From an uncultured Alphaproteobacteria bacterium (lineage in GTDB: Bacteria > Pseudomonadota > Alphaproteobacteria > CAAHEQ01 > UBA3637), in the NCBI GenBank assembly GCA_944393195.1, contig CALXZG010000008.1, positions 1 to 51,657 on the forward strand: 51,657 nucleotides of DNA, in the 5' to 3' direction. The notes under the pieces are model-generated. The model was given only the letters and a program-made list of their open reading frames with translations. It was not told the origin of the DNA and searched no databases. The position numbers were made by a program, and so were the translations under genes. Shown here one piece after another: positions 6,603 to 50,975 of the stretch. The first letter of the stretch is position 1. Every line of letters begins with the position of its first letter.

Positions 6603-7354
6603 TGAAGTTATCTTTGTATATGATTACCTATAATGAAGAAAAGCGTTTGGAAAAAACGTTAGCGGCGGCAACACAGGTCGCGGATGAAATTGTCATTGTG
6701 GATAGCGGATCAACAGATAAAACGATTGCAATTGCCCAAAGTTATGGCGCCCGAATCTATCATCGGCGGTGGACAAGTTTTGCCGACCAAAAACATTTTG
6801 CCCAAAACAAGTGTCGGTATCATTGGGTATTATCATTGGATGCGGATGAGGTCTTATCGCCGGAACTCATTACGGAAATTCAAGAGCTGAAAAAGAAAAA
6901 GCCGGATTTTCATGCCTATAATTTGCGGATTGCCAGCATGTATCCCGGGATGCGGTTTCGGCGGGGAACATACACGTATTGCATTATCCGTTTATATGAC
7001 AGACGGTTTGCCACAATGCGGGCCGATTTATTGACCGAAGACCGAATCGCGCCGCTTCATCCAATGGTTATCGGAATATTGCGCGCTCCGGTTTTACATT
7101 ACTCTTTATTAAACCTGACACAACATGTGGATAAGATCAATCGATTTACGGATGATGTTCAGGCAACGGTTCAAAAATACGGAAAAAAGTATTCCATTGT
7201 ACGATTAGTCGGTGAATTACCGTTACAATTTATTCGATATTATGTGATACGGCGTTTTTTCATTCACGGGGTATGGGGATTTATTGCGGCCGTCAATATT
7301 GCCTATTCCCGTTTTTTAAAAATAGCAAAAGCCATTGAAAAGGAAAGATTATGA
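6599..7354 (+). CDS. Glycosyltransferase family 2, WaaE/KdtX-like
   Basis: The 251-residue protein resembles the WaaE/KdtX branch of GT2 enzymes that add a glucose-type sugar to the lipopolysaccharide core. It opens with SLYMITYNEE, then IVIVDSGSTD (about 31-40, nucleotide-sugar binding) and the DAD metal motif at 81-83. The C-terminal part is basic and amphipathic, and probably membrane-associated. ATG 6599 has GGAG 7 bases upstream. Its end overlaps the next glycosyltransferase by 4 bases. Core LPS synthesis at the inner face of the membrane is the likely role. Donor and acceptor are inferred. Confidence 0.8.
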   Translation: MMKLSLYMITYNEEKRLEKTLAAATQVADEIVIVDSGSTDKTIAIAQSYGARIYHRRWTSFADQKHFAQNKCRYHWVLSLDADEVLSPELITEIQELKKKKPDFHAYNLRIASMYPGMRFRRGTYTYCIIRLYDRRFATMRADLLTEDRIAPLHPMVIGILRAPVLHYSLLNLTQHVDKINRFTDDVQATVQKYGKKYSIVRLVGELPLQFIRYYVIRRFFIHGVWGFIAAVNIAYSRFLKIAKAIEKERL

Positions 7355-48928: not shown

Positions 48929-48956
48929 TAACAATTTAATGTACATTAAATTGTTA
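48929..48956. repeat. 28-bp perfect palindrome between divergent genes
   Basis: The sequence TAACAATTTAATGT is followed directly by its exact reverse complement. It lies between the lipoprotein operon and the adhesin gene and could be an operator for either, or a cruciform-forming site. Confidence 0.7.
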
Positions 48957-49044
48957 TAGTTTTTATAACATAATTGAGAATATGACACAAGTCCTTTTTT
49001 ATTAAGAATTAATTGGTTATCGTTTTGTCATTTTTTGTCCAAAG

Positions 49045-49076
49045 TGTAACACGAAAGGGTACATTTTTGTGTTACA
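49045..49076. promoter_or_regulatory. Inverted repeat upstream of the adhesin gene
   Basis: TGTAACAC (49045-49052) and GTGTTACA (49069-49076) are inverted with a 16-base spacer, 34 bases before the adhesin ATG. No clear sigma70 promoter is seen between here and the palindrome, so an activator- or repressor-bound site is plausible. Confidence 0.45.
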
Positions 49077-49109
49077 GTTCGAAAGGAATATTAACTGACT
49101 GAAATCAAA

Positions 49110-50138
49110 ATGGAAAACGGCCGGAGTATGGTTGAAATGTTAGGCGTTCTGGCGGTGGCGGGTGTGTTATCGATTGGCGGTGTGGCCGGGTATCGGTGGG
49201 CGATGGATAAATATCGGGCGAACGACACAATACGCGAACTTTCTCAGCGCGCCGTAGTGCATTCTCAACAAATGTTGGCCGGAAATACTGTCTTGTCGAA
49301 TGCCGAGTTTAATCCCGCCAATCAAACACGTTTAGGATATGGCTTAACCCAAGCAATCCTCGCGGCACAACCGGACTTTTTTGAAATTCGGCTTAGCGAT
49401 GTTCCGGAACGCGTTTGTCAAAATATCATTGATTCGGATTGGGTCTTGCCGAGCGGTTGGGAAATCAACGGCTCTTCGGAAGACGGTGTAATGTGCGCCG
49501 CAACAAATAGTATGGCCTTTTTCTTTCATCGCGTTTTAGATAACACGAAAGTGGCCAATGGGGAAGAAGTGACGGAAGAAGCGGGGGAACCTTGTTCCGG
49601 GCATGGAGTATGGAACGGGGAAAGTTGCACGTGTGACAATTGTTATTGTGGAACGGATTGTTCGACATTGACATGCACATACGATGAATCCGAATGTAAT
49701 GGGCATGGAGTGGTATGGTGTGGCGGTTATTGTCTCTGCGATCGTGGGTGGTACGGCGATTGGTATGGTTCCTGTGCAGTTCAAGGAGATTTTTGTAATG
49801 GACATGGAGTTTTCAATGGATGTGGCTGTCGGTGTGATGCCGGATGGAGTGGTCGAGCTTGTAATGATAATGTAGACCGTTGCAATGGTCATGGGGTATT
49901 TGAGACTTTTGTTGGGTTCTATTCCTTTTGTGGTTGTCGATGCGACGATGGATGGTACGGAGATGATTGTTCTTCGGATGCCCCGGTTTCTACTTACACC
50001 GACTATGAAACAACTTATACGGATTACGAGACTACCTATACGGATTATGAAACAACCTATACCGATTATGAGACTACCTATACAGATTATGAAACAACGG
50101 TTTCGGGGGAATCCGATTGCTCCGGACACGGGACATGA
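49110..50138 (+). CDS. Prepilin-type modular adhesin, N-terminal part up to an in-frame TGA
   Basis: The 342-codon frame starts with a type IV pilin-like signal (NG followed by RSMVEMLGVLAVAGVLSIGGVAGY, with Glu at position +5) and a pilin-like domain to about residue 155. Four EGF-like Cys units follow, each opening C(S/N)GHG and holding C-x-C and GW or GY. Then come five YTDYETT repeats and the start of a fifth Cys unit, CSGHGT, cut by TGA 50136-50138. The same frame continues for 278 codons. AAAGGA lies 23 bases before ATG 49110, while an in-frame CTG at 49095 is at normal distance. Likely exported by a type II or IV pilus system. Confidence 0.75.
   Translation: MENGRSMVEMLGVLAVAGVLSIGGVAGYRWAMDKYRANDTIRELSQRAVVHSQQMLAGNTVLSNAEFNPANQTRLGYGLTQAILAAQPDFFEIRLSDVPERVCQNIIDSDWVLPSGWEINGSSEDGVMCAATNSMAFFFHRVLDNTKVANGEEVTEEAGEPCSGHGVWNGESCTCDNCYCGTDCSTLTCTYDESECNGHGVVWCGGYCLCDRGWYGDWYGSCAVQGDFCNGHGVFNGCGCRCDAGWSGRACNDNVDRCNGHGVFETFVGFYSFCGCRCDDGWYGDDCSSDAPVSTYTDYETTYTDYETTYTDYETTYTDYETTYTDYETTVSGESDCSGHGT
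49995..50099 (+). repeat. Five 21-bp tandem repeats encoding YTDYETT
   Basis: Units begin at 49995, 50016, 50037, 50058 and 50079. Protein sequence is identical in all five, but codons alternate: units 1, 3 and 5 use GAA ACA, and units 2 and 4 use GAG ACT. This implies an underlying 42-bp period and selection to keep the residues. Confidence 0.92.
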
Positions 50139-50975
50139 AACGGTTGCGGGTGTATTTGCGATACTGGGTGGAGCGGTGACGATTGTTCGACGTGTTGTGG
50201 CGGTGATTGTTCTTGTGGGGAGAATGAATATCGGTTATCGACAGGAGAGTGTGTCGCAGATCCGCACACAGAATGTGCGGATGGGGAGTTTTATAACAGA
50301 ATGATAAGTTCCTGTACAGCTTGTCCAACAGAGGGAAATGCCGTTCAAAATAATCCATCATATATAGAGGATACGTGTGAGAAATGTTCGGGAGCACAAT
50401 CAGGGGGATATGATCCTTATTATTGTGTTTATTGCCCATCCGGGATTGTGTGTGGTGACCAATGTTGTGGGGAAGGACAAATGTGTCAACGTGGTAATTC
50501 TTATCCATATACATTTACCTGTGTCTCTGCATTAGGGGAAGGAGAATGTTTTACGAATGAGGATTGTACAGGAGAAAATCAATATTGTCGGAATAGTTCT
50601 ACTTGTGAAATAACGATTGGGACATGTGAAACGGTTAACAGTACGACCGTGACGATTAACGGAACCGAATACACAGCGTCAACAGGTGGTATCCCCTATC
50701 ATGCGGCGGAGAATTTCTGTGAAGCGCTAGGGAAGACATTAGCACCGGTGACAGACGGGTGTACAGCGGAAGAATTAGCAACGGTTAAGGCAAACAATTA
50801 TTATGGTGGTGGTTTCACGGGTAGTTGCATGGGATGGGCGCACACGACGGGTTACAATTATTGGACAGCAACCAAATTAAGTGGGTGTACTTCGTATTAT
50901 GTAAGCAGTCGTAGTGCAGGCGCGGCCGGGGCTCTCGAGTGGCTCTACAGCACTTACTTCGCCCTTTGTCGATAG
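50139..50975 (+). pseudogene. In-frame continuation of the adhesin after the TGA
   Basis: The frame reopens directly after TGA and runs to TAG 50973-50975. It completes the fifth EGF-like unit (NGCGCICDTGWSGDDC), adds several Cys-rich knottin-like segments (CCGEGQMCQRG, CFTNEDCTGENQYC) and ends with a domain of about 120 residues. That domain has TVTINGTEYTAS, HAAENFCEALG, GYNYWTATK and a final STYFALCR, which may be a C-type-lectin-like module. An ATG at 50301 has no ribosome site, so this is not a separate gene. Readthrough or a nonsense mutation are the options. Confidence 0.7.

Follow-up and report, generated by a model that had tools for sequence, protein, structure and literature searches.

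The gene at 49110–50975 of the window (the whole stretch of DNA analyzed here, 51,657 nt), referred to below as the C8 gene, raises a simple question: does the in-frame TGA within it mark a broken gene, a switchable allele, a codon that is read through, or an error of the assembly? The frame runs from ATG 49110 to the TGA, continues through 278 open codons, and closes with TAG 50973–50975. An open run of this length would arise by chance at the local base composition with p ~5e-8, and the downstream 278 codons have 21 matches elsewhere in the genome, with 55–73% identity. Because it is homologous to these 21 further places, we regard the downstream frame as genuine, and the claim of a previous sequence-only reading that the frame goes on unshifted past the TGA for 278 codons was confirmed, both by reading the frame and by homology.

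Position of the TGA within the gene

The internal TGA sits in the fifth EGF-like unit (CSGHGT-stop-NGCGC; Table 1). The sister gene L178 (G000:C1:184800–188800) reads CSGHGTWNGCGC, with the codon TGG at the position of the TGA, which verified the earlier statement that a sister unit has Trp there. More broadly, W, F, V, Y, and other residues occupy the equivalent site in EGF units of the host genome and its relatives. The upstream half of the gene matched Pfam EGF_Teneurin with 32.8 bits (cut-off of 24.3), and the truncated product, which has 342 aa and four EGF units, may retain a function. Separately, five in-frame 21-nt repeats (YTDYETT) at 49992–50100 form the linker from EGF unit 4 to unit 5, and their copy number could change with the frame kept.

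Table 1. Positions in the window of the features of the C8 gene and of its upstream region
Feature	Position	Strand	Remark
First (upstream) palindrome in the family promoter cassette, TGTAACA-N18-TGTTATA	48929..48960		Same palindrome pair before many pilin-like genes in the genome
Second palindrome in the same cassette, TGTAACA-N18-TGTTACA	49047..49078		
Shine-Dalgarno site, AAAGGAA in the C8 gene (AAAGGAG in most siblings)	49082..49088	+	
Family start-codon position	49095..49097	+	CTG in the C8 gene; ATG in 12/12 other promoter-sharing genes examined
Upstream half up to the internal TGA, with a prepilin-like leader plus hydrophobic helix (NGRSMVEMLGVLAVAGVLSIGGVAGY), four EGF-like units (1–4), five linker repeats of the YTDYETT type, and the beginning of unit 5	49110..50138	+	
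Internal TGA	50136..50138	+	Trp codon in the corresponding EGF unit of L178
Downstream half with 278 open codons, comprising the remainder of EGF unit 5 and the Cys-rich stem and C-terminal variable domain common to ~20 paralogs; no start codon preceded by its own Shine-Dalgarno site was noticed	50139..50972	+	
Variable repeat (SYYV...ALCR) of the diversity-generating retroelement (DGR) type	50889..50972	+	Hypervariable codon positions 1 and 2 on a fixed scaffold

The downstream half might also be a separate gene with its own start, given that ATG 50301 opens 224 codons. However, no Shine-Dalgarno site or promoter was recognized by eye at 50301, and the product would be without an export signal. 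We rejected this candidate, which we regard as highly improbable, since intact siblings have the region fused to the pilin N-terminus.

Decoding of UGA in the host

We then asked how UGA is read in this genome (a 1.15-Mb draft in 24 contigs, 88.6% complete). Genes at 7354, 8373, and 12270 of the window end in TGA, and the host prfB carries the canonical frameshift site CTT TGA C for its autoregulation, after which the frame continues at +1. The 42 tRNAs found in the draft include a single Trp tRNA, which has a CCA anticodon; none has a UCA anticodon, and no suppressor tRNA is among them. A code with UGA as Trp is marked by the loss of RF2 and a UCA tRNA-Trp; here, we found prfB with its autoregulatory UGA and a tRNA-Trp with CCA only. 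Since prfB keeps its CTT TGA C site and the tRNA set offers only Trp-CCA, without UCA, UGA is a real and normal stop in this host, and genetic recoding was rejected on the prfB frameshift and the tRNAs. The standard code assumed in the sequence-only reading was thereby borne out, and its description of the locus as an adhesin-like gene interrupted by a single in-frame TGA under that code is likewise supported. A change of genetic code or a selenocysteine at this UGA has as its sole support the presence of UGA at a sense position, against which stand the three TGA-terminated genes, the prfB site, the decoding of Trp by a CCA tRNA, and homologous units with W, F, V, or Y, not Cys, at the site; its probability is negligible. 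The prfB gene with its programmed frameshift site in this alphaproteobacterial lineage lies on the minus strand of L164 (G000:C7) at ~2515.

Programmed or leaky readthrough of the UGA, giving a minor full-length product, would fit the open frame after the stop and the aromatic residue tolerated at this site in sister units. However, no suppressor or UCA tRNA is among the 42 found, RF2 is present and autoregulated through its UGA, and the start codon is missing too (see below). In addition, the comparison of the TGA site with relatives, which had been proposed as a check, revealed that the stop is conserved in none of the paralogs or relatives found. Readthrough is therefore not supported, and we consider it very unlikely.

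Promoter cassette and the family start codon

The ATG at 49110 is the choice of ORF calling and corresponds to an internal Met of the siblings, ~22 nt past the end of the Shine-Dalgarno core. The siblings start 15 nt upstream of 49110, at a position adjoining their Shine-Dalgarno sequence, so 49110 is probably not the family start, and the earlier assignment of the start to this ATG had to be corrected. The codon that the C8 gene has at the sibling start position (Table 1) is a second lesion beside the TGA. CTG is able to start translation weakly. The changed Shine-Dalgarno sequence was not counted as a lesion, since another family gene, L153:837, has AAAGGAA followed by ATG.

The promoter cassette consists of paired ~32-bp palindromes ~118 bp apart (~131 in some genes), followed by the Shine-Dalgarno site. 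At least twelve other pilin-like genes (e.g., L182, L079, L005, L016, and L191) have the same cassette as the C8 gene, and the paired palindromes are probably a shared operator. A phase switch by an inverted promoter segment between the palindromes was also considered, of which there is no sign, as all segments that were read have one orientation.

A family of pilin-like genes with a variable end

The C8 gene is one of ~20 related genes in this draft genome, a family that combines a prepilin-like N-terminus, a Cys-rich stem, and a C-terminal variable domain. Intact members are mostly 415–480 codons long, and the family C-terminus reads ...YWTATKLSGCxSYYVxSxSSGAVGxxxWxxxxxALCR. The prepilin leader (G/xxxxE) and hydrophobic helix are present in the C8 gene (NG/RSMVEMLGVLAVAGVLSIGGVAGY); the Pfam N_methyl match in one paralog was weak (E = 0.22, below the cut-off). 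In L047, L051, L049, and L044, an in-frame interspersed repeat (...KIPAFAGMTE...) occurs just before the prepilin leader and lengthens the N-terminus. No orthologue of the full architecture was found in 43 family genomes, GTDB genome contigs, or viral contigs.

Further analysis of the variable repeat (VR), i.e., the last ~80 nt, revealed that dS between paralogs is mostly 0.1–0.2 and dN 0.4–0.5 (dN/dS mostly 2–6). In comparison, the family body has a dS of ~0.7 and a dN of ~0.2 (dN/dS of ~0.3). Variable VR positions fall almost entirely in codon positions 1 and 2 (22/24), and the VR of the C8 gene has an omega of 1.7. On the codon-position and dN/dS pattern, the family thus has a 3′-terminal VR that is hypervariable on a fixed scaffold, as DGR targets do. 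The pattern is consistent with what is expected from DGR retrohoming, which would homogenize the scaffold and randomize adenine-derived codons, the host draft having yielded no template repeat (TR; see below). When examined for a C-type lectin fold, the variable domain had no match in PDB or Pfam, and its single-sequence structure model had a mean pLDDT of 39.

DGR mutagenesis was rejected as the cause of the TGA, as the stop lies ~750 nt outside the VR. A clear decay of the C8 VR was considered as well, its pairwise dS being 0.33 vs mostly 0.1–0.2, and was rejected with a leave-one-out result (5/52) level with that of intact siblings. Elsewhere in the genome, a pilin-like gene with a different body (C7:53299; L190:3812–5161) ends in a related variable repeat, and short VR-like matches occur at C1:86572 and C15:16743; a single VR may have been distributed over several scaffolds.

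Selection and gene conversion

Downstream of the stop, the body of the C8 gene shows an omega of 0.28, indicating purifying selection as in the siblings (0.22–0.38), and its 278 codons contain no further stop or frameshift. Assuming neutrality, the 95% bound on the divergence since the stop arose is <0.06–0.10 substitutions per site, a bound on the age of the TGA that is weakened because gene conversion confounds the drift estimate. Specifically, 66 of the 171 paralog pairs shared tracts longer than in any of 500 column shuffles, a test that corrects only in part for uneven conservation along the gene. Tracts of the C8 gene are identical to C20 at 73/73 positions and to C6:48399 at 58/58, where the other paralogs reach 57–86%. 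Such pair-specific tracts argue for gene conversion, and the paralogs appear to be mosaic.

These data bear on the option of an on/off allele, in which the stop and/or start change segregates, reverts, or is replaced by sibling conversion, with the result that the surface protein would be turned on or off in a subset of cells or strains. The clean downstream frame, the extensive mosaicism beyond all shuffles, and the complete conversion tracts within the C8 copy would all suit such an allele. However, neither a simple-repeat tract nor an inversion is present at the stop, and two independent lesions speak against a simple switch; we judge this option unlikely. An error of the assembly or consensus, or a mixed-strain consensus in this metagenome-assembled genome, seems less probable still. 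In an incomplete draft of 24 contigs, many of which end in or near paralogs, paralog reads could have been mis-assigned, but the C8 gene is the only copy with a DGR tail to have the EGF part, where the TGA is located, and the start lesion adds an independent second difference.

Other broken members of the family

Besides the C8 gene, at least four other family members or relatives are broken. The EGF sister L178 (C1) has its frame closed by a TAA at a position that is Gln in paralogs and is without the family Shine-Dalgarno site and start; the third EGF gene, L078, and C2:75139 are without the pilin N-terminus; one C2 copy (79929/80255) is split; and C6:48399 is without its stop codon. All three related EGF-bearing members (the C8 gene, L178, and L078) are damaged. 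Judging from these sequences, loss of function is common in the family.

With the family start codon, kept by the promoter-sharing siblings, also missing and several paralogs broken in other ways, a fresh nonsense mutation fits best among the options that the sequence-only reading had listed. While its nonsense mutation stood and its stop readthrough did not, that reading had missed the DGR-type variable domain of ~20 paralogs.

DGR components in the host and its congeners

The host genome has a single reverse transcriptase (RT), which is of the DGR type (L044, C1:1355–2161) and is located immediately behind a gene of the family. Its identity to the RT of the congener G003 is 47% as far as the LPIGNLTSQ region, after which the sequence breaks off and YxDD is absent, and no complete DGR RT, with (I/V/L)GxxxSQ and YxDD, was found in the host draft. 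Inactivated DGR RTs have been described (PMC3521204). Neither Avd nor TR was found near the truncated RT. Across the host genome, no Avd was detected with a query that does find it in the congeners G001 and G003, which served as positive controls (its identity there being based on matches to NF033474 and bAvd that do not reach the curated cut-off). A search of the ~89% complete draft for a TR with a VR-based 90-mer returned VR ends and a few short matches, none of them a TR. Because only a truncated RT was found, without Avd or TR, the host DGR is either degenerate or has a working copy in the unassembled part.

G003 and G001 have an intact RT, with LPIGNLTSQ and YVDD, within Avd-TR-RT cassettes accompanied by nearby variable-repeat genes (L121:4342–6976 and L122:2936–5760). 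TR/VR changes fall at template adenines in 11/11 cases in G003 and in 9/10 in G001. The proposed link between the host family and a DGR is thus based on the VR pattern and on these congeners. The target of the congener cassettes is a small secreted gene, and nearly all differences between its VR and the TR are at adenines. In another family member, the DGR-like RT (L117, G041:C69) is interrupted by TAA.

Interpretation and comparison with known systems

Taken together, the C8 gene is probably a recently inactivated paralog of a dispersed, ~20-member family of pilin-anchored, DGR-diversified surface proteins in an uncultured alphaproteobacterium with a small genome, and we infer that its expression has been lost. 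In a working member, the prepilin leader would direct export as a type IV pilin-like protein, and a Cys-rich stem, EGF-like in a few members, would be displayed with the C-terminal variable domain at the tip. The surface codons of this tip would be randomized by retrohoming from a TR supplied in trans. Translation of the C8 gene, if started at all, would end in EGF unit 5, leaving the stem and variable tip unmade; its clean downstream frame suggests that the lesion is recent and/or that conversion by siblings rewrites it. A more speculative and rather doubtful extension is that pilin-anchored adhesins are diversified in two layers, with DGR acting on the tips and gene conversion on the Cys-rich/EGF stems, and that untranslatable copies serve as silent donors to expressed siblings.

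The silent pilin cassettes of Neisseria (pilS/pilE) have a pilin-type N-terminus, incomplete copies, and gene conversion between copies. The host family resembles them in all of these respects but differs in that its copies are for the most part complete genes, many of them behind a promoter cassette of their own, and in that no single expression locus was identified.

By itself, the C8 stop represents an ordinary broken gene, and the wider interest lies in the family. Its ~20 genes with a DGR-type variable end in 1.15 Mb exceed both the two to seven dispersed targets per genome of the Treponema denticola DGR (PMC4891356) and the 15 targets of Thiohalocapsa PB-PSB1 (PMC10907252). As it pairs hypermutation with gene conversion, the family offers a natural test case of how a large hypervariable repertoire is managed, lost, and recycled by its host.

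T. denticola is similar in having several dispersed targets in one genome, some of which are truncated, "suspicious," or over-mutated, and some isolates keep targets without RT and TR (PMC4891356). In contrast to its targets, which are described as outer membrane lipoproteins (PMC10907252), those of the host family are carried on a prepilin-like N-terminus. Thiohalocapsa PB-PSB1 likewise has many targets, with some loci degenerate and some apparently diversified in trans, but its targets are tied to conflict systems, and its nine DGR loci are spread over a 7.95-Mb genome (PMC10907252). The remote variable proteins of cyanobacteria are also comparable, with VR-bearing CLec domains dispersed and grafted to different N-terminal domains, but they differ in being mostly predicted to be cytosolic and linked to signaling (PMC7517822).
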